A DNA stretch of 36,962 bases, from NCBI RefSeq assembly GCF_005233835.1, contig NZ_SZQA01000055.1, positions 1 through 36,962 of the forward strand. The letters are read 5' to 3'. Below the pieces are notes generated by a model that was given only the letters and a program-made list of their open reading frames with translations, had not been told where the DNA came from and searched no databases. The position numbers and the translations under genes were made by a program. Source of the DNA: Herbidospora galbida (GTDB lineage: Bacteria; Actinomycetota; Actinomycetes; Streptosporangiales; Streptosporangiaceae). Each line of letters starts with the position of its first letter. The stretch's first letter is position 1. Below, in pieces: positions 5,081-15,106 of this stretch.

Positions 5081-5116
5081 CGAAAAGGGACGCGCGGGAT
5101 CGCGCGTCCCTTTTCG
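5081..5116. terminator. Strong hairpin terminator between the MFS and exopolysaccharide operons
   Basis: A perfect 16-bp inverted repeat, CGAAAAGGGACGCGCG (5081-5096) and its complement (5101-5116), has a 4-nt loop. The arms end in A4/T4 runs, so it can act in either direction. It lies 3' of the minus-strand exopolysaccharide operon. Confidence 0.8.
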
Positions 5117-5297: not shown

Positions 5298-6629
5298 TTA
5301 CGGCATGCCGAGCGCCCGGTACTCCCAGCCCTCGGCGCGCCAGAACTCGGCGTCGAGCGCGTGGCGGCCGTCGACGATGCGGCGGTGCTTGACCACGGAG
5401 GCCAGGGCCGACGGCTCGATCTCGCGGAACTCGGTCCACTCGGTCAGCAGCACCACGACGTCGGCGTCGGCCGCCACGTCCATGGCGCTGGTGCCGTAGC
5501 GCAGCTCGGGGTAGGCGCGGCGGGCGTTGTCGAGCGCGGCCGGGTCGTAGACCCGCACGTTGGCGCCCAGGCCGTGCATGGTGCGGGCCACGTCGAGCGC
5601 GGGGGCGTCGCGGATGTCGTCGGAGTTCGGCTTGAAGGCCGCGCCGAGGCAGGCCACCTTCTTGCCGTTCAGCTGCCCGCCGACCATCTCACGGACCAGG
5701 TCGATCGTGCGCGAGCGGCGGCGGCGGTTGATCGCGTCCACCTCGCGCAGGAACGACACGGCCTGGCCGACGCCGATCTCCTCGGCCCGGGAGGCGAAGG
5801 CGCGGATGTCCTTGGGCAGGCAGCCGCCGCCGAAGCCGAGACCGGGCTGGAGGAACCGGCCGCCGATGCGGTCGTCGAAGGCCAGCGCCTTGGCCAGGTG
5901 ACGCACGTCGGCCCCGGTGGCCTCGCAGATCTCCGCCATCGCGTTGATGTAGGAGATCTTCGTGGCCAGGAACGAGTTCGCGGCCACCTTCACGAGCTCC
6001 GCGGTGGCCAGGTCGGTCACCACGACCGGGGTGTCGTTGTCGATGATCGGCCGGAACGACGCCTCGAGCTGCTCACGCGCCCAGTCGGAGGCCACGCCGA
6101 ACACCAGCCGGTCGGGACGCAGGGTGTCCTCGACCGCGAAGCCCTCACGCAGGAACTCGGGGTTCCAGGCGAGCTCGACCTCGTCGCCGGCCGGGGCCAG
6201 CTCCTTGATCAGGCCGGTCAGGCGGGCGGCGGTGCCGACGGGGACGGTCGACTTGCCGACGACCAGGACCTTGCGGTCCAGGAGCGGGGCCAGAGCGGTC
6301 ACGGACGCGTCGACGTAGGTCAGGTCGGCGGCGTCCATGCCGGGCTTCTGCGGGGTGCCCACACAGATGAAGTGCACGTCACCGTGGGCGGCGGCCTCCT
6401 CGACCGACGTGGTGAACCGGAGTCGGCCGGTCGCCATCGTCTTGGCGAGCAGTTCGGGCAGACCTGGCTCGAAGAAAGGCACCTCGCCGGATTGCAGCCG
6501 TTCGATCTTGCGGGGGTCGGTGTCGAGTCCGACCACCTCATAGCCGAGGGAGGCCATGCAGATCGCGTGAGTGGCTCCGAGATACCCGGTCCCGATGACG
6601 GTGATCCGGGGGAGTGCGGTTTCAGTCAT
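5298..6629 (-). CDS. UDP-glucose 6-dehydrogenase (UDP-glucose/GDP-mannose dehydrogenase family)
   Basis: This 443-residue enzyme is predicted to oxidise a nucleotide sugar twice with NAD+, giving a nucleotide uronic acid (UDP-glucose to UDP-glucuronate). Visible features: an N-terminal Rossmann motif (VIGTGYLGATHA), the VGTPQKPG region, the Lys/Asn helix of the central domain, the catalytic cysteine in FGGGCLPKD (about residue 270), and the C-terminal motif AFKPNSDDIRDAP. UDP-glucose rather than GDP-mannose is the likelier substrate by overall resemblance, but the two subfamilies are hard to separate by eye. It is the last gene of the five-gene operon, 21 bp after the third beta-helix gene, with a GAGAGAAC ribosome binding site. 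It would supply the uronic acid precursor for the GT2 polymerase. Confidence 0.93.
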   Translation of the reverse strand: MTETALPRITVIGTGYLGATHAICMASLGYEVVGLDTDPRKIERLQSGEVPFFEPGLPELLAKTMATGRLRFTTSVEEAAAHGDVHFICVGTPQKPGMDAADLTYVDASVTALAPLLDRKVLVVGKSTVPVGTAARLTGLIKELAPAGDEVELAWNPEFLREGFAVEDTLRPDRLVFGVASDWAREQLEASFRPIIDNDTPVVVTDLATAELVKVAANSFLATKISYINAMAEICEATGADVRHLAKALAFDDRIGGRFLQPGLGFGGGCLPKDIRAFASRAEEIGVGQAVSFLREVDAINRRRRSRTIDLVREMVGGQLNGKKVACLGAAFKPNSDDIRDAPALDVARTMHGLGANVRVYDPAALDNARRAYPELRYGTSAMDVAADADVVVLLTEWTEFREIEPSALASVVKHRRIVDGRHALDAEFWRAEGWEYRALGMP

Positions 6630-6650
6630 TGTCAGTTCTCTCGCAGAAAC

Positions 6651-7856
6651 TCAGGAGCATTCGCTCTTCTTGGTGAGCGGGCCGCCGGTCACCTCGTTGT
6701 CGCAGGAGATCGTGTTGCCGCCTGCGGTGTCGTTGATGCCGTAGCCCCCTGAACCGCCCAGATCGATGACGTTGGCCCGGAAGGTGTTCCCGGTTCCCCA
6801 GCCATTGATGATCTTGTGGGTCTGGAAGCCGTCCGCGGGGGAGCCGCGGCCGGTGTTGCGTTCGATCAGGTAGCCGTTCCCCTTGACGTCCACCCAACTG
6901 TCGTTGTGGCCATCGCCGGTGATCATCGAGCCGTCGAAGATGTTCCCGATGATCTTGCCGTCGGAGGTGCCCTCCTTGATGTCGATGGCCTCCGCGGTGG
7001 CGCGGATGACGTTCCCGCGCGCGATGTTGCGGTCGCTCTTGTCCATCTGGCCGCCGGAGAAGGTGGCCCAGTTGCTCTCGGCGGTGCCGAAGTAGACCCC
7101 CTCGCCGTACTTGTCCTTACGGAGTCCGGTGCCCCAGATGAGGTTGTACTGGGCGATGTTGTCGGAGCTGAAGTTCCTGAAGTGGATGGCCTCGTCGCCG
7201 ATGTGGTTGACGTCGAGGTCCTGGACCACGTTGAAGTTCGACTTGTCGGCCATGACGCCCTTCTGGGCGTGCCGGACGGTGAAGCCGATGAGCCGCCAGT
7301 AGTCGGCCTCGTTCAGGTGGAAGGCGTAGCCCTCCTTGAGGCCGCCGCCGTCGATGATCGCGTCGCGGGAGCCGCAGACGAAGATCGGCTGGTCCTTGGT
7401 GCCCTTCGTCGCGGCCGCGAAATGACCCTGGTACTCGCCCGGCTCCATGAAGATCACGGTGCCCGGCGTGGCCGAGGCGAGGGCCTCGGTGAGCTCGTCG
7501 GCGGTGGTCACGGTCACGGTCGCCTCGGGACAGGCGATCTTGCCCTCGCCGTCGGGGATCGCGATGTCCGGAGGCTGCTGGACGGCGGTGAACGGCTCGA
7601 AGTCCTCCTTCTTCTCGTCCTCCTCCCGCACCTGCTCCTCCTCCTGGAAGTCTTCACCGGAGTCGTCGGCCCCCAACGTCGGCAGGGGCCGCTGACCGGT
7701 CTCGGGCTGGATGTTCTCGACCACCATGCCGGGTTGTTGCTCCTGACCACCGCCGCCGAAGATCCCGTACAGGACGACCACGATCAGGATCGTGAAGGCC
7801 GCACCGGCCCCCGCCGCGATCATGGTCTTCTTGTCGATGTCGATCTCGATGCGCAT
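6651..7856 (-). CDS. Membrane-anchored right-handed beta-helix protein (possible polysaccharide lyase or epimerase)
   Basis: A 401-residue protein. The start is ATG at 7856, two bases after the previous stop, with GAAAGGA as ribosome binding site. Residues ~10-33 form a single transmembrane segment (AGAGAAFTILIVVVLYGIF). A ~50-residue linker follows that is very acidic (DDSGEDFQEEEQVREEDEKK). The extracytoplasmic domain, from about residue 110, begins with CPEATVTVTT and shows beta-helix coils typical of pectate-lyase-like proteins (PGTVIFMEPGEYQG, DAIIDGGG, DYWRLIGFTVRHAQKG, GNVIRATAEAIDIKEGTSDG). Only three cysteines are outside the anchor, one near each end of the domain. It is not closely similar to the two AlgG-like neighbours. 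Trimming, modifying or exporting the polymer is inferred from context; no catalytic triad could be assigned. Confidence 0.85.
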   Translation of the reverse strand: MRIEIDIDKKTMIAAGAGAAFTILIVVVLYGIFGGGGQEQQPGMVVENIQPETGQRPLPTLGADDSGEDFQEEEQVREEDEKKEDFEPFTAVQQPPDIAIPDGEGKIACPEATVTVTTADELTEALASATPGTVIFMEPGEYQGHFAAATKGTKDQPIFVCGSRDAIIDGGGLKEGYAFHLNEADYWRLIGFTVRHAQKGVMADKSNFNVVQDLDVNHIGDEAIHFRNFSSDNIAQYNLIWGTGLRKDKYGEGVYFGTAESNWATFSGGQMDKSDRNIARGNVIRATAEAIDIKEGTSDGKIIGNIFDGSMITGDGHNDSWVDVKGNGYLIERNTGRGSPADGFQTHKIINGWGTGNTFRANVIDLGGSGGYGINDTAGGNTISCDNEVTGGPLTKKSECS

Positions 7857-7858
7857 GG

Positions 7859-9724
7859 TCAGGTCCTTTCGGCGGACGCGCCGGTGAGCGACCACACGGG
7901 ACGCTCCTCCATGACGGCCTGCCTCTCGTACGGGTCGACGATGCGACGTCCGACGCGGGGCCCGTTGTTCCCGAGCGCCCGGATGGCGGAGATCACGATG
8001 AGCAGGATGACGCCGAACCAGATCAGGTTCATCGGCTTGGCGATGCGCTTGACCGTGGTCCAGAAGTCCGCCGTGTCCTGCCAGCCGTCGACGTTGTTGG
8101 TGGTGACCGCGGCCATGCCGGTCGCGCGGTCGGTGTCGAGCGCGCTGCGCCCGGCCCCGCCCAGGGTGTTGCCGACGACCTCGGTGCCCGTGGCCACCCC
8201 CAGCACGGAGACGCCGTGCAGGGTCGCCTGGTTGACGGTGTTGCCCGTCACCTCGGCCTCGGCGTTGCGCAGGTAGATCGCGGTCGGGACGTTGTTCACG
8301 ATGTTTCCGACGATCTTGGCGCCGGTGACGCCGTCGCGTACCGCGATGCCCTGGCTCCACTGGCCGCTGATCCGGTTGCCGGAGACCCGGACCCCGGTCG
8401 CGTCCTTGTTCACCACGATGCCCGTCTGCCCGCCGGTCACCTCGGTAGTCTGGACGGCCAGGTCGACGCCGCCCTGGATCTCGACGCCGTAGCGCTTGTT
8501 CTCCTTCGACCACGAGCTGGTCACCGAGCTGCCGCCGAAGCTCTGCAGCGACTCGCCCGAGGCCGACGGGCCGCGGGCCAGCGGCAGGCCGCTGAGGGTG
8601 AAGCCGTTGCCGCCGTTGCCGACCGCGCCCGAACCGGTGATCGTCACGTTCTGGGTGCCGCGCGAGAGCACGAACCCGTCGCCGCGCGAGCCGGTCACCG
8701 TGGTGTTCTCGATGGTGGCGTTGCGGGCGAACCGGTGCAGCAGCACCCCGTCGACCAGGCTCCCGGTCACCGTCACGTTGGCCATCCGGGTCTGGTTGGA
8801 TGCCGTGATGAAGATGCCGTAGGCGTTGCCCTTGATCGAGGTCTCGGTGATCTCCCCGGTGACGAGGTTCGCCTTCGGCAGCTTGTACGCCACCCTCTTC
8901 AGGCCCTTGCCGTCGTGGATCACCACCTGGTCGTCGTCGCCCATGCGCGGCACCAGGGCGCCGCCCGGGAGCAGCACCTTCTCGTCGGTGAGCGGCGGGG
9001 CCGGCGTGAGGTCGGCGTCGAGGGTGGTGCGGTCGCTGCCGGTCAGCGAGAGGCCGCCGGTCGAGCCGCTCCAGAACCCGAGGTACTCGACCTGCGCGTG
9101 GCTCATCCGCAGCTCGCCGCCGATCACCCGCACGTAGGCCCGGCCGTCGTTGACCCGGCTGTCGGCCGTGTTGATGTTCGGGTCCCAGCTGGTGAGGCGT
9201 ACCGGGTTCTGCGGGGAGCCGTTGATGCGGATGCTGGCGCCGAAGCCGACGATCGTGGCGAACGACCCCGGCTCGCTGCGCATCCGGATCACCAGCGGGC
9301 CGGTCGCGTTCTGCAGCACCAGCTTGGCGTTCGGGCCGACGAACAGGTTGATGCCGAGGATGTACGACCCGTCGTTCTGCTTCTGGAAGTACTCCCCGCC
9401 CAGCTTCTCCAGGTCGGCGACCCGGTAGGGCTCGCGGCGCGAGGGCAGCACCAGCGTCTGGCCGTTGGCCGAGCTGGAGATGTGCGGCTGCCGGGCCCGC
9501 TGCGCGTTGGGGCCGCCGCGGGCGATCGCCGACATGAGCGTCGCCCGCGTCTGCATGATCCGCAGGTCCTCCTGGTCGACCAGGTTCGACTGCTGCTTGG
9601 CGTCGGCGGCGGTCACGTCGTCGACCGCGGGCGTCGGGGCCGGCCTGTCGGCATAGGAGAGGTAGGCCCAGGTGCCAGCGCCCAGCAGGAGGAGCACGAA
9701 GAACGTGATCCAGGCCTTCTTCAT
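7859..9724 (-). CDS. AlgG-like parallel beta-helix protein, membrane anchored (paralogue B)
   Basis: A 621-residue protein. The ATG at 9724 overlaps the previous stop (ATGA). An N-terminal membrane segment (WITFFVLLLLGAGTWAYLSY) is followed by a conserved N-domain (LVDQEDLRIMQTRATL). A right-handed beta-helix of about ten PbH1-type coils occupies residues ~150-540, and a C-terminal transmembrane helix (NLIWFGVILLIVISAIRAL) leads to a short tail with VDPYERQAVMEERPVW. The order of coils resembles the mannuronan C5-epimerase AlgG: VEYLGFWSG, then DGVLLHRFARN, then GDGFVLSRGTQN. Where AlgG has DPHD, this protein has VLLHR (His about residue 330), so the His is kept and both Asp are missing. Likely role: binding or epimerising the uronic polymer outside the membrane. 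Confidence 0.87.
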   Translation of the reverse strand: MKKAWITFFVLLLLGAGTWAYLSYADRPAPTPAVDDVTAADAKQQSNLVDQEDLRIMQTRATLMSAIARGGPNAQRARQPHISSSANGQTLVLPSRREPYRVADLEKLGGEYFQKQNDGSYILGINLFVGPNAKLVLQNATGPLVIRMRSEPGSFATIVGFGASIRINGSPQNPVRLTSWDPNINTADSRVNDGRAYVRVIGGELRMSHAQVEYLGFWSGSTGGLSLTGSDRTTLDADLTPAPPLTDEKVLLPGGALVPRMGDDDQVVIHDGKGLKRVAYKLPKANLVTGEITETSIKGNAYGIFITASNQTRMANVTVTGSLVDGVLLHRFARNATIENTTVTGSRGDGFVLSRGTQNVTITGSGAVGNGGNGFTLSGLPLARGPSASGESLQSFGGSSVTSSWSKENKRYGVEIQGGVDLAVQTTEVTGGQTGIVVNKDATGVRVSGNRISGQWSQGIAVRDGVTGAKIVGNIVNNVPTAIYLRNAEAEVTGNTVNQATLHGVSVLGVATGTEVVGNTLGGAGRSALDTDRATGMAAVTTNNVDGWQDTADFWTTVKRIAKPMNLIWFGVILLIVISAIRALGNNGPRVGRRIVDPYERQAVMEERPVWSLTGASAERT

Positions 9725-11823
9725 CGCCCGCCTCCCACGGTGACCGTCGGGACGGCCGGCTGCGTCGGCCTGCTACGCCCGTTGAACCCGCTGCCGTTGG
9801 TGGCGGCCGCCGCGTTCGCCAGCGCCCAGGACGGGCGCTCCTCCATCGCCTTCTGGAGCTCGTACGGGTCGACGATGCCCTTGCGGCGCCGGTCCATGAT
9901 GCCGCGCGACCGGAGCGCGGAGACGAGGATCAGCAGGATCACGCCGGCCCAGATGACGTTCATCGGCTTGACGTACCGCTTGGCCTTGCTCCAGAAGGTC
10001 GAGGTGTCGACCCACCGCTCCTCGTCGTTGTTGTGGTCGTTCACGTCGCCGCTCGACCGGGCGGTGCTGACCGCGCTGGTGCCCGAGCCGACGATCGTGT
10101 TGCGGGCCACCTCCGAGCCGCCGGCCGCGCCGACGACCGTGACGCCGTGGGCGTTCACGTCCTTCACGGTAGTGATCTTGTTGCCGACCACCTGGCCGTT
10201 GGAGTCGCGCATGTAGACGCCGGTCGGGCCGCCGGTGATCGTGTTGCCCGAGACGTAGGCGTTGCGCACGCCGTCGCGCAGTGCGATGCCCTGGCGCTTC
10301 TGGCCGGTCAGCTTGTTGCCCGACAACTGCACGGCCTCGGCTCCGGCGCGGACCACGATGCCCATGTCGCCGCCGACGACCTCGCTGGTCTGCACGGCCT
10401 GGCGGATCCCGCCCATGACCTCGATGCCGTAGCGGCCGTTGCCCCGGGCCACGCTGTTGTTGACCGAGCTGTCGCCGTAGACCGCCAGCGACTCACCCGA
10501 GGCCGACGGGCCGTGAGCCAGCGCCCGGCCGTCGAGGGTGAAGCCGTTGCGCCCGTTGTTCTCCGCCAGGCAGTCGTTGACCTGGACCTTCTCGGTGGCC
10601 CGGGAGAGCACGAAGCCGTCGCCGCCGCTGCCGGTCACCTCGGTGTGCGAGATCGTCGCGTTCTTGGCGAACCGGTGCATGAACACGCCGTGGACGATGC
10701 TGTCGCGGATCTTGTTGTTGATGATCTGCGTCTGGTTCGAGCCCGACACGAACAGCCCGTAGGCGTCGCGGGTGATCACGCTGTTCTCGATCTTGCCGGT
10801 GACCAGCTCGTCGGCCGGCACGTGGGAAGCGGTGCCGGGTCCGATCGGGTAGGTCTCGACGTCGCCGTAGGTGCCGCCGCCCTGGTCCTTGGTGTTGTTC
10901 TCCAGGCGGTCGGCCTTGTCCTGGTGGCGCTGGGCCTTGGTGCGGTGCCGGTAGGTGGAGGACGGGCGCTCGGTGCCGGTCAGCGCGATGCCGCCGGTAC
11001 GGCCGCTCCAGAAGCCCAGGTCGGAGACCTGGCCGTACACCATGTTGAACTGGCCGCCGACGGCCCGGATGTAGGCCCGGCCGTCGGTGGTGTCCAGGTC
11101 GGGCTTGCTGGCCTTGACGTCCCAGCTGGTGATGCGGACCGGCTTGGTCGCGGTGCCCTTGATGTCGATGTTGCCGCCGAAGGTGATGATCGAGCTGAAC
11201 GACCCCGGGATGCTGCCCATCCGCAGCGTCATCGGGCCGCGCAGCTGGAGCGTCGCGCCGTCGGCCACGAAGACGTGGACGCCCAGCAGGTAGGACCCGT
11301 CGGTCATCAGCCGGACGTACTTGCCCTTCTCGACCGAGATCAGGTCCTTGAGCGTGTACGGCCGCTCGTCGTTGCGGGCCGGCAGCACCATCGTGCGGCC
11401 GAACGACGAGGAGAAGATCTGCGGCTGCTTGCGCTGGGCCGCCGCGATGCCGCCGGTCTGCAGCAGCGCCGTGAGCGCCGCCCGGGTCTGCAGGATGCGC
11501 TGGTCCTCCATGTCGACGAGCGCCGACTGCGACTCGGCGTCCTCGGGGGAGATCTTGATCAGCGGCTCGGGCTCGGAGCTCGGGATGCTCGGCGCGTCAC
11601 TCGGGACGGCCGCCGGCGCGGTCTCCTGAGCGGGCTCCCGGACCGGCTCCGCAGTGGGCTTCGTGCTCGGGATGGTGTTGGTCATCCCGGTGTCGGCCGA
11701 CGGCCGCGCACTCGCCGGGGGAGTCGGCGAGGGCGAGGGCGCGGCGGCGACGGGCGGTACGCCGATCGTGAGCGCGCCGAGCAGCAGGGCTCCGGCCGTC
11801 ACGATGGTCCTGTGTATGGCCAT
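9721..11823 (-). CDS. AlgG-like parallel beta-helix protein with signal peptide and C-terminal anchor (paralogue A)
   Basis: A 700-residue protein starting at ATG 11823, which shares one base with the glycosyltransferase stop (TGATG). Residues 1-28 are a signal peptide (TIVTAGALLLGALTIGVPPV, cleavage after AAA). A ~50-residue Pro/Ser/Thr/Glu-rich linker follows, then the same N-domain (LVDMEDQRILQTRAALTA), beta-helix, C-terminal helix (NVIWAGVILLILVSAL) and tail (VDPYELQKAMEERPSW) as the next gene, so the two arose by duplication. A hydrophilic insertion of ~50 residues (after TGTERPSSTYRHRTKAQRHQ) is absent from paralogue B. The AlgG-like segment reads HGVFMHRFAKN, with His about residue 383, and GDGFVLSRATEK. 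The C-terminal tail after the last helix is longer than in paralogue B. Confidence 0.87.
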   Translation of the reverse strand: MAIHRTIVTAGALLLGALTIGVPPVAAAPSPSPTPPASARPSADTGMTNTIPSTKPTAEPVREPAQETAPAAVPSDAPSIPSSEPEPLIKISPEDAESQSALVDMEDQRILQTRAALTALLQTGGIAAAQRKQPQIFSSSFGRTMVLPARNDERPYTLKDLISVEKGKYVRLMTDGSYLLGVHVFVADGATLQLRGPMTLRMGSIPGSFSSIITFGGNIDIKGTATKPVRITSWDVKASKPDLDTTDGRAYIRAVGGQFNMVYGQVSDLGFWSGRTGGIALTGTERPSSTYRHRTKAQRHQDKADRLENNTKDQGGGTYGDVETYPIGPGTASHVPADELVTGKIENSVITRDAYGLFVSGSNQTQIINNKIRDSIVHGVFMHRFAKNATISHTEVTGSGGDGFVLSRATEKVQVNDCLAENNGRNGFTLDGRALAHGPSASGESLAVYGDSSVNNSVARGNGRYGIEVMGGIRQAVQTSEVVGGDMGIVVRAGAEAVQLSGNKLTGQKRQGIALRDGVRNAYVSGNTITGGPTGVYMRDSNGQVVGNKITTVKDVNAHGVTVVGAAGGSEVARNTIVGSGTSAVSTARSSGDVNDHNNDEERWVDTSTFWSKAKRYVKPMNVIWAGVILLILVSALRSRGIMDRRRKGIVDPYELQKAMEERPSWALANAAAATNGSGFNGRSRPTQPAVPTVTVGGGR

Positions 11824-13088
11824 CAGGCCAGTCCCTGCAGCGTCGCGGCCGTCTGGCCCTCCGAACCCGCCTGGTCGGCCTTGCGGGTCAGCCAGCCCTG
11901 CTTGTTCATGGTGAGGAACGCGTAGAGCTTGATCGGCAGGGCGATTCCGATGATGACCAGGGTGGTCAGCGGCAGCAGCAGGATCTCTTGCGGGTGGCGC
12001 TTGAGGTGCGACCAGCCGCGGATGCCGCGGCCGATGAGCAGCCAGCCGACGCAGGTGCCGATGCCCCAGGGCGTCAGCTCCAGGCGGCTGAAGAACAGGT
12101 AGCCGAGCGTGACGCCCATGGTGACCGGGGTGAGCAGGATCTGCAGCACGGTGACCTTGGTGACCAGCGGCGTCTTCCACAGCCAGCCCTTCCACAGGGC
12201 GGTCAGGTAGCAGCGGTAGGAGTTGCGGCTCCAGCGGATGCGCTGCTTGAAGAAGGCCCGGAACGAGCTCGGGAACATCGAGATCGCCCGCGCCGACGAC
12301 TGGTGCACCGTCTTGTAACCGGAGGCCAGCACCAGCCAGGTGAGCCGCCCGTCGTCGCCGGCGATGCAGCGGCGGCCGAGGAAGAACTCGTTCTCCAGGT
12401 GGTGGACGACCGGCATGATCGCCGACCGGCGGTAGGCGGCGGTGCGGCCGGACAGGCAGGCCACGCCACCACGGCTGCCCATGGCGGGCACGTAGTCGTA
12501 GTAGCGCAGGTTCACCAGCCAGTCGGCGATGCGCCGCCAGACGCTGGTGGTGCGCTGGAACACGTTCTGCTGGGTGCCGACGCCACCGACCTGCGGGTCC
12601 TCGAACGGCATCTGCACGGCGTCGAGCAGGCCGGGCTCCCACCAGGTGTCGGAGTCGGCGAACACCACGATGTCGCCACGGGCGGCCCGGATGCCGACCC
12701 CCAGCGCCGACCGCTTGCCCGAGTGTTCGTAGACGAGCACGCGCAGCCGGGGGTCGTTGACCTCCCGCAGCTTCGCGTGACATTCGGTGTCCGCGACGTC
12801 GACGACGATGATCACTTCGCCCGGGTTCTGGGAGAGCCAGCTCCCGAGGCACCGGACCAGGATCTCGGCGTCCTCACGGAACGACGGCACCACGACCGAG
12901 ACGGACGCGCGGTAACCGTTGACGACGGGCTTGGCCAGCCGGGACAGCACGACCCGGTAGATCCAGAGACCCCAGACGAGCAGACCCGCCAAGCCGAGCG
13001 GGACGATGTCCCGCCAACTCCCGTTGGCGCTCGACCTCACCAGCCATTCATAGGCGGTGTCGAGCCAATTCGCAGAATCAGACCCCAC
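11823..13088 (-). CDS. Processive GT2 glycosyltransferase, hyaluronan/cellulose-synthase-like
   Basis: I chose GTG at 13088 as start because AGGAG lies 9 bp upstream; an in-frame ATG at 13130 has no ribosome binding site. The protein is 421 residues. Order: one N-terminal transmembrane helix (residues ~25-50), the GT-A catalytic domain, then three C-terminal hydrophobic segments. Hallmarks of processive GT2 synthases are all present: VVDVAD, the metal-binding DSD (about residues 145-147), LSGRTAAYRR, the catalytic-base motif GDDGRLT (about 244-250) and QRIRW (282-286). GDD plus LSGxxxxYRR resembles hyaluronan synthases more than cellulose synthases (TED). It should polymerise and extrude a beta-linked polysaccharide from UDP-sugars at the membrane. 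The coupled UDP-glucose dehydrogenase suggests that glucuronate is one of the monomers. Confidence 0.9.
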   Translation of the reverse strand: MGSDSANWLDTAYEWLVRSSANGSWRDIVPLGLAGLLVWGLWIYRVVLSRLAKPVVNGYRASVSVVVPSFREDAEILVRCLGSWLSQNPGEVIIVVDVADTECHAKLREVNDPRLRVLVYEHSGKRSALGVGIRAARGDIVVFADSDTWWEPGLLDAVQMPFEDPQVGGVGTQQNVFQRTTSVWRRIADWLVNLRYYDYVPAMGSRGGVACLSGRTAAYRRSAIMPVVHHLENEFFLGRRCIAGDDGRLTWLVLASGYKTVHQSSARAISMFPSSFRAFFKQRIRWSRNSYRCYLTALWKGWLWKTPLVTKVTVLQILLTPVTMGVTLGYLFFSRLELTPWGIGTCVGWLLIGRGIRGWSHLKRHPQEILLLPLTTLVIIGIALPIKLYAFLTMNKQGWLTRKADQAGSEGQTAATLQGLA

Positions 13089-13918: not shown

Positions 13919-14890
13919 TCAGAACATCGAGATGTGAACGTGGTCGTAGTGGTTGGCGGTGTTGCCGCCCCGGTTGCTCATGAAGCGCCAGCCGGTGCCG
14001 CTGTTGATGCGCTGGCGCCAGATGACGTACTTCACGCCGAGCTTGGTGCGGTTCTTCAGGGCCCACTCGGCCAGCTGGTCGCCGAGGAGCTTGGCCGCGC
14101 CGGTGGCCATCGCGCCGCCGGTCGTCATCATGAAGTCGCAGGCGCGGCCGAGCGGGTGCTCGCCCATCGTGTCGACGCGGAAGCAGCCGATCGAGTTGTT
14201 CAGCTTGAAGGCCGCCTTGGCCTCCTCGCGCATCAGCCGGGTGCGGGCGGTGATGTTGTCGGCGCCAGTAGGCAGCTGCGGGGCCCAGCCGCCGTTGGCC
14301 AGCTTGCCGGGGCCGATCGGGATCAGGTCGTCGAGCCGGTCCTTGATGTCATCGATCAGGTCCTCCGCCTCCACGCGGCGCTTCTCGATGTCTTTGGACT
14401 TCTTGTCGATCTCGGTGATCAGGGTCTTGGCCTCGGCCGCCGCCTGCGCCCGCGCCTGCTCCTTCTGCTTGTAGTTGCGCACGATCGCGGCCTGCTCGTT
14501 GCCGAGCTGCATCGCGAGCGGCGACATGCCCATGCCGGGCGGCAGCACGATCCCGCCGTTGCCGGGGATCGACTGGTAGCTGAGGCCGGCCAGCCGGGCC
14601 ATCTCGCGCTGGGCCGCCGCGAACTCGGCGTGCGCCTTGTCCAGCTTCGCCTGCGCGGCCTTGTGCGCCGTCTTCGCCTCGGCGAGGTCGTCGCGCGCCG
14701 CGTGATATTGGGCGATCAGCGAGTTGACCTTCTTCTCCAGGCTGGACAGCTGCTTGCGCAGTTTGTCGGCGTCGGGCTTGGGGGCCGCGACAGCGGGGCC
14801 GGGCACCAGCGCGGCGCAGAAAGCGGCCACCAGGGCCGCCACCGGAAGGAGGAACCACCGGTGGTTGCGACGGTGCGTCGTGGCGGGCAG
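13919..14890 (-). CDS. Secreted coiled-coil LAS-family peptidoglycan hydrolase, c-di-AMP riboswitch controlled
   Basis: About 323 residues. A signal peptide (WFLLPVAALVAAFCAALVPG, cleavage near AVAA|PKPD) is followed by a long coiled coil (~residues 30-170: LRKQLSSLEKKVNSLIAQYH, then a second helix rich in K/E/D). The C-terminal domain of ~110 residues has GCFRVDTMGEHPLGRACDFM and ANHYDHVHISM. The HxxxxxxD and HVH ligands are those of the LAS (VanY/lysostaphin) zinc peptidase fold, so it should cut peptidoglycan peptides. The architecture resembles RipA/CwlO-type wall hydrolases. The start is uncertain: no ATG, GTG or TTG in frame fits. The best-placed codon is CTG at 14890, downstream of AAGGAGAGGAG; a GTG nearer that site is out of frame. 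A c-di-AMP riboswitch lies directly upstream. Confidence 0.85.
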   Translation of the reverse strand: MPATTHRRNHRWFLLPVAALVAAFCAALVPGPAVAAPKPDADKLRKQLSSLEKKVNSLIAQYHAARDDLAEAKTAHKAAQAKLDKAHAEFAAAQREMARLAGLSYQSIPGNGGIVLPPGMGMSPLAMQLGNEQAAIVRNYKQKEQARAQAAAEAKTLITEIDKKSKDIEKRRVEAEDLIDDIKDRLDDLIPIGPGKLANGGWAPQLPTGADNITARTRLMREEAKAAFKLNNSIGCFRVDTMGEHPLGRACDFMMTTGGAMATGAAKLLGDQLAEWALKNRTKLGVKYVIWRQRINSGTGWRFMSNRGGNTANHYDHVHISMF

Positions 14891-14906
14891 CGCCCACTCC
14901 TCTCCT

Positions 14907-15043
14907 TGCGCCGGCCGGGTTAGCTGACGGATTCGGGCGGAGGAGCCCGGGCGCGCGATAGCGCCTACACCCCAGGTTCTGGTGGGTCCCCGGCTCCCGG
15001 GCGACACGCCCGGGATTAGGCAGTCCGCCGAGATCTCGGCGGG
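14907..15043 (-). ncRNA. c-di-AMP (ydaO/yuaA) riboswitch
   Basis: On the minus strand the leader shows the conserved blocks of this class as found in actinobacteria, in order: TAATCCCGGGCG, GGGAGCCGGGGACCCA, CCTGGGGTGTAGGC, CCGAATCCGTCAGCTAACCC and GGCCGGCG, then the ribosome binding site of the hydrolase gene. An 18-bp perfect palindrome (CCGCCGAGATCTCGGCGG, 15025-15042) sits at its 5' end. Known biology: this class turns cell-wall hydrolase genes off when c-di-AMP is high. Boundaries are approximate. A TACTAT hexamer at 15058-15053 may be the -10 element. Confidence 0.88.
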
Positions 15044-15106
15044 TTCGTGTGGATAGTAATGGTAAAGACGAGGCAAGTGCTACTTGAAGTTGCGACCATA
15101 CGGAGA

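Follow-up and report, generated by a model that had tools for sequence, protein, structure and literature searches.

Five adjacent genes of Herbidospora galbida probably make up a self-contained locus that produces a uronic-acid polymer at the cell surface. What was observed is the order, homology and co-occurrence of the genes, together with predicted folds and conserved residues of the proteins; from these we infer the activities, the substrate, the polymer and the place of action. In the proposed pathway, a UDP-glucose 6-dehydrogenase (UGDH) would make UDP-GlcA in the cytoplasm, and a glycosyltransferase similar to hyaluronan synthase (HAS), here called GT2, would polymerise it, either by itself or in alternation with a second UDP-sugar. 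GT2 itself would form the membrane pore by which the chain leaves, making an outer-membrane exporter unnecessary. Outside the cell, membrane-anchored proteins with the fold of AlgG (PbA and PbB) would bind the chain and probably modify its uronic residues at C5, and a membrane-anchored PL31-type lyase (PbC) would trim, clear or release it by β-elimination. The locus works like the alginate and hyaluronan machineries combined.

If this is true, soil bacteria of a large group that includes many antibiotic producers possess a dedicated acidic polymer at their surface, a synthase of the hyaluronan type can work together with tailoring enzymes of the alginate type, and a PL31 lyase has its place in biosynthesis, not feeding. 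The locus also makes the idea of iduronate-type chemistry on a β-helix testable. With so few genes, and conserved ones, reconstitution on a small scale could provide the answer.

Organization of the locus

The window (the whole stretch of DNA that was analysed) covers 36,962 nt of contig NZ_SZQA01000055.1 from the 8.3-Mb H. galbida genome. The five tightly spaced minus-strand genes described in a sequence-only reading of this DNA were all recovered at the same positions, and their overlaps were confirmed (Table 1).

Table 1. Genes and terminator-like element of the H. galbida locus
Feature	Description	Position in window	Strand	Length	Remarks
GT2	HAS-like processive membrane glycosyltransferase	11823..13088	-	421 aa	
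PbA	AlgG-like β-helix protein	9721..11823	-	700 aa	hydrophobic N-terminus; C-terminal TM helix and short tail
PbB	second AlgG-like β-helix protein	7859..9724	-	621 aa	layout as PbA
PbC	PL31-type uronate lyase homologue	6651..7856	-	401 aa	N-terminal membrane anchor
UGDH	UDP-glucose 6-dehydrogenase	5298..6629	-	443 aa	
Hairpin	terminator-like, 3′ of UGDH	5081..5116	-		16 pairs

GT2 starts with a GTG codon preceded by AGGAGA. Its stop codon shares one base with the PbA start (TGATG), the PbA and PbB genes have 4 bp in common (9721-9724), and gaps of 2 and 21 bp separate PbB from PbC and PbC from UGDH. Three overlapping hairpin sites were found in the stretch, against 0.2 expected in shuffled sequences. 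Chance clustering of the genes was ruled out by the recurrence of their order and content in other actinobacteria; this recurrence, together with the terminator-like hairpin that follows the genes, makes the set more than chance. About 830 bp lie upstream of GT2 before the next gene. No σ70-type promoter was found ahead of GT2, a result of weak meaning for this genus. Surface anchoring had been proposed for all three β-helix proteins, and hydropathy analysis supports their membrane anchoring: PbA and PbB have N-terminal and C-terminal hydrophobic stretches, PbC an N-terminal one.

The neighbouring gene upstream of GT2 (13919-15076) carries a c-di-AMP riboswitch in its leader (14895-15032, minus strand). 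Because the longest ORF overlaps the riboswitch, this gene probably has its true start further in. This gene and the flanking MFS gene were considered as operon parts and rejected, strong matches being present only in six Herbidospora loci of the 79 described below; MFS matches of 27-30% identity in some other loci look generic.

Conservation and co-occurrence of the genes

When the genome_contigs collection (84,980 species) was scanned, 212 GT2 relatives were found, and the best 79 of the 212 loci were kept. The nearest named relatives are six listed Herbidospora (Streptosporangiaceae), whose GT2 is 98-99% identical to that of the window. Actinobacteria are named in 78 of the 79 locus titles. 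The remaining contig (L128), titled Vibrio cholerae strain 35D, has 66.8% G+C and the whole gene set, and is probably a mislabelled assembly. Genes for GT2, AlgG-like protein (1-3 hits), PL31 protein (1-2 hits) and UGDH follow each other in that order on one strand in 67 of the 79 loci. In nine of the 12 others a contig end no more than 268 bp away truncates the locus; the available flank of L117 and of L123 is without UGDH, and in L134 a UGDH of 40% identity lies upstream. When 1,054 filtered ORFs from the 79 loci were clustered, four families proved to be present in 58-72 loci and no fifth was broadly conserved, the next occurring in 18. Between the four families, pairwise distances show correlations of 0.79-0.91 (64 of the 79 loci), which shared species history may explain.

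Because the 79 loci had been picked by GT2 similarity, we also searched 296 genomes drawn evenly from the class; the three draws made were taken as the same genomes, their listed handles agreeing. At most six (GT2), seven (PL31) or four (AlgG-like) candidates were scored per genome, so that absences are not absolute. GT2 scored above 500 bits in 21 of the 296 genomes, the window's included, and about 250 bits in two more. With up to seven candidates per genome, PL31 proteins (E 1e-40) were found in all 21 GT2-positive genomes versus 4 of the 275 others; with up to four, AlgG-like proteins (E 1e-25) were found in 19 of the 21 versus none of the 275. All 19 AlgG-like hits lie on the GT2 contig, beside GT2. 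A concern raised earlier, that the β-helix proteins might persist without GT2, was thus not borne out for the AlgG-like proteins in the 19 class-sample genomes with a hit.

We fetched 19 of the 21 class-sample loci, leaving out the window and G296, where GT2 is near a contig end and PL31 on another contig. All 19 have AlgG-like proteins near GT2 (with an identity of just 27-29% in three), 18 have PL31 proteins there and 13 a UGDH of the same subfamily. One of the six loci without the latter has a UGDH resembling the PRK15057 type nearby (631.7 bits, cut-off 757). As to the two GT2 relatives at about 250 bits, G140 has a 26%-identical β-helix protein nearby and the other has none. The predicted neighbourhood of GT2, β-helix proteins and UGDH is therefore conserved in actinobacteria, but the linkage of UGDH, though common, is not universal. 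Co-occurrence of the four families supports a joint system for the predicted uronic polymer.

Spread of the locus on plasmids was considered and dropped, as the plasmid collection held no match at E 1e-60. Several loci deviate individually. On a Herbiconiux contig (L130), GT2, AlgG-like and PL31 genes each occur twice, next to one another and together with a pair of UGDH genes. One locus adjoins genes (L139 3628-5291) that resemble those for heptose-phosphate kinase and phosphoheptose isomerase, with scores under the model cut-offs in both cases, a hint of another sugar nearby. In L070 (13235-15698) the second AlgG-like gene, and in L134 (11824-14786) both the AlgG-like and the PL31 gene, have frames that look broken, through either sequencing error or decay.

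GT2 resembles hyaluronan synthases

In Pfam, GT2 matches PF13641 and GT2 domains. A profile was built from alignment A5 (window GT2 and 27 relatives picked for spread). Its top solved structures, among the models and structures searched, are hyaluronan synthases, in agreement with the HAS-like polymerase of the sequence-only reading: HAS1 structure 8smm matched at E 2e-25 over profile positions 103-404 (of 419), a span that takes in the C-terminal membrane part, and Chlorella-virus-type HAS (CvHAS) entries at E 8e-24 to 6e-23. The DSD, GDD and QRxRW motifs on which that reading relied are invariant in all 28 sequences, as are GKR and WxTR, the variable x aside. Hydropathy analysis placed one N-terminal and two C-terminal segments above threshold.

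In CvHAS, the residues described around UDP-GlcA are His174, Lys177, Asp201, Asp203, Arg341, Trp342 and Arg348 (PMC12987647), and those of the gating loop are Trp454 and Arg457 (PMC11750622). These residues align, by eye in HMMER alignments, with GT2 positions invariant in 28 of 28 sequences. Such aligned residues support a HAS-like mechanism but are no proof of the sugar. Several of them, key Lys and Arg included, are common to processive GT2s in general and therefore leave the sugar unfixed. We keep GT2 apart from HAS as a class, its product being a predicted one.

The best NCBIfam model for GT2 is NodC (141 bits), and GT2 could in principle make a neutral polymer or an oligosaccharide (chitin- or cellulose-like, or a NodC-type oligomer), with the β-helix proteins and UGDH serving other surface functions such as adhesion; β-helix folds do occur in adhesins and tailspikes. 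We consider this improbable: the NodC cut-off of 550 bits is far from reached, UGDH is usually alongside GT2, and the β-helix proteins are tied to GT2 and keep active-site residues of uronate enzymes. In the set of models and structures searched, GT2 groups with HAS and NodC; the clustering with non-processive or short-chain enzymes that would have spoken against the sequence-only reading was not seen.

With HAS as the closest solved synthase and UGDH as a source of UDP-GlcA, the product might also be hyaluronan or another GlcA/GlcNAc capsule, made by a bifunctional GT2, with PbC as its lyase and the AlgG-fold proteins only binding or guiding the chain. This is a narrower case of the uronic-acid polymer proposed above, so the probabilities of the two overlap; we regard it as a serious possibility, though less likely than not. 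A difference at the switch loop speaks against it and also counts against the broader reading, since beside the Cys all 28 GT2 sequences have SGR where the two aligned HAS structures have SGP or GGP.

UGDH is closer to UDP-glucose than to GDP-mannose enzymes

UGDH matched TIGR03026 with 428 bits. The best of its solved-structure matches is a UDP-glucose dehydrogenase (338 bits) and most top matches are so named, one at 334 bits being named only as UDP-glucose/GDP-mannose family. GDP-mannose dehydrogenase scored 193 bits, animal-type UDP-glucose enzymes about 198 and others 101-132. The earlier designation as UDP-glucose 6-dehydrogenase is therefore probable, and the scores favour UDP-GlcA over GDP-mannuronate without settling the choice. 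Three further dehydrogenases of the UGDH family exceed the cut-off in this genome, so this polymer need not be the sole destination of UDP-GlcA.

These scores bear on whether the locus makes true alginate, a mannuronan in which some residues have been epimerised to guluronate. In its favour, a processive GT2 does have AlgG-fold proteins and a homologue of a polymannuronate lyase beside it. We nevertheless disfavour alginate proper and think it very unlikely: UGDH is closer to the UDP-glucose than to the GDP-mannose enzyme, a difference that is not decisive given that some distant UDP-glucose enzymes score lower still, the closest structures of GT2 are HAS, and the AlgG-like proteins are without the DPHD motif.

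PbC is a homologue of PL31 alginate lyases

The third of the proteins called β-helix proteins from the sequence alone, PbC, is not a generic one but a PL31 alginate-lyase homologue with a conserved active site. It matched PsAly, the PL31 alginate lyase of Paenibacillus sp. FPU-7 (6kfn), over the whole domain by both sequence profile and fold. Catalytic Tyr184 and Lys221 and the cation ligands of PsAly have been assigned (PMC6796002). PbC keeps both catalytic residues, the side chains that bind the cation at either site, and those residues of the active site that are completely conserved. Twelve such positions and His278 are conserved in 45-46 of the 46 sequences of alignment A3 (window PbC and 45 of the 79 locus sequences, picked for spread; L134, whose frames look broken, was omitted). 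PsAly residues Asp188, Lys191, Tyr195 and Tyr244 are not kept in PbC (by eye, HMMER alignment); they are ionisable and were mutated in PsAly, and stand outside its completely conserved list (PMC6796002). PbC further differs from PsAly in being membrane-anchored and in its place in a biosynthetic operon. PbC thus has the PL31 features tested, lyase activity is predicted for it, and its homology makes the alginate analogy stronger. Uncharacterised lyase homologues in Streptomyces and other Gram-positives were mentioned in the PsAly paper (PMC6796002).

Lyase chemistry of the PsAly kind cuts at 4-linked uronate (PMC6796002). Such a linkage is also present in hyaluronan, as a GlcA/GlcNAc capsule would require, but PsAly, the best relative of PbC, prefers polymannuronate (PMC6796002). 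For the uronic-acid polymer proposed here, a model is provided by alginate producers, where a periplasmic lyase clears misplaced chains (PMC4444821); by analogy, PbC likely has a similar role, or a releasing one. The genome contains a second PL31-type gene (G000:C28:131960-132889, L055), 63% identical and unlinked to the operon, which encodes a signal-peptide-like N-terminus and was found in all seven genus genomes searched and in G033. Its apparently secreted product is a candidate for chain release.

PbA and PbB have features of AlgG

PbA has Beta_helix and NosD matches in Pfam and shares about 46-47% identity with the PbB proteins of Herbidospora relatives. Likeness of the β-helices to AlgG, the periplasmic mannuronan C5-epimerase, had been suggested, and comparison of the PbB model (spanning approximately residues 46-522) substantiated it: the closest fold among the matches listed is AlgG (4nk6, 4ozy, 4ozz, 4nk8), ranked above AlgE (29) and all further listed matches (27 and below). 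The Foldseek TM-scores are modest, 0.37-0.42 by query and 0.48-0.56 by target, with rmsd 8.7-8.9.

Alignment A4 comprises the window PbB and 52 of 105 locus sequences picked for spread, with L134 and L070 (frames look broken) and L116 (cut short) omitted. The catalytic base of AlgG, the His of its DPHD motif, is kept in 53 of 53 sequences (H301 of the PbB segment), and so is the Arg aligned with the AlgG Arg (mapping by eye from the HMMER alignment). Arg345 of AlgG presumably has a functional role. The HR...R residues of the family were also read directly in the translation of PbA, which is outside A4. The rest of the AlgG motif is different: V (26), L (18), F (6), I (2) or A (1) stands for Asp317, L (31), M (20) or F (2) for Pro318, Arg in 53 of 53 for Asp320, and D (25), H (23), G (3) or N (2) at the Tyr314 position. 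Neither the full DPHD motif nor Tyr314 is thus kept in the 53 aligned sequences, and for this reason PbA and PbB are not classed as AlgG, from which they also differ by a C-terminal TM helix. Against the NCBIfam AlgG model (cut-off 700 bits) PbA scored 19.1 bits and PbB was not listed at E 0.001.

The C5 epimerisation put forward by the sequence-only reading stays a proposal with evidence on both sides: the AlgG His and the aligned Arg are invariant, and DPHD and Tyr are not kept. Loss of the latter is what would be expected of proteins that only bind or guide a hyaluronan-type chain; an invariant His and Arg in an AlgG-like cleft suggest catalysis instead. In a more specific and rather unlikely version of the uronic-acid polymer pathway, the AlgG-fold proteins would be C5-epimerases of new specificity, converting D-glucuronate to L-iduronate in the finished chain, so that the product of the locus would be a glycosaminoglycan-like polymer containing iduronate, with the PL31 protein as its dedicated lyase. 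The known glucuronyl C5-epimerases have a fold other than the β-helix.

AlgG-like β-helix proteins were also seen in seven sampled genomes, all from one other family (L153, L163 (G140:C1), L155, L157, L159, L160, L164-L166). Four of these proteins were read and have a near-canonical YG-V/I-DPHS motif, a further one from G140 having YGLDGHD. A sugar-nucleotide dehydrogenase of about 30% identity is nearby in the four loci read, and in G140 two such proteins lie less than 10 kb from a 39%-identical HAS-like GT2.

Relation to known systems

In full-text searches of open-licence papers, none of the titles or abstract starts among the results pointed to a description of the operon. The Pseudomonas/Azotobacter alginate operon (AlgD, Alg8, AlgG, AlgL) likewise combines a sugar-nucleotide dehydrogenase, a processive GT2, an AlgG-fold protein and a uronate lyase, AlgL differing in fold from the PL31 β-helix. 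Here, in contrast, the dehydrogenase is of the UDP-glucose and not the GDP-mannose type, the synthase is HAS-like, DPHD is missing, and the proteins are membrane-anchored in a Gram-positive. With hyaluronan synthesis (HasA, HasB; class I HAS) the locus shares the HAS-like GT2 with its five motifs and the linked UDP-glucose-type dehydrogenase, and differs from it by the added AlgG-fold and PL31 proteins and by SGR for SGP/GGP. The Gram-positive Pel locus of Bacillus cereus is another synthase-dependent exopolysaccharide locus found via Gram-negative homology (PMC7112168), with different genes and polymer.

The operon has no Alg44, AlgK, AlgX, AlgE or acetylation genes. Absence of an AlgX equivalent, as stated earlier, holds for the operon but not for the genome, where an unlinked gene pair encodes MBOAT and ALGX-domain proteins (L167 8023-10382, G000:C40), as in alginate O-acetylation. 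The ALGX domain does not track GT2: it was found in 8 of the 296 class genomes and in 1 of the 21 GT2-positive ones, and AlgX-type acetylation was therefore rejected as part of the system.
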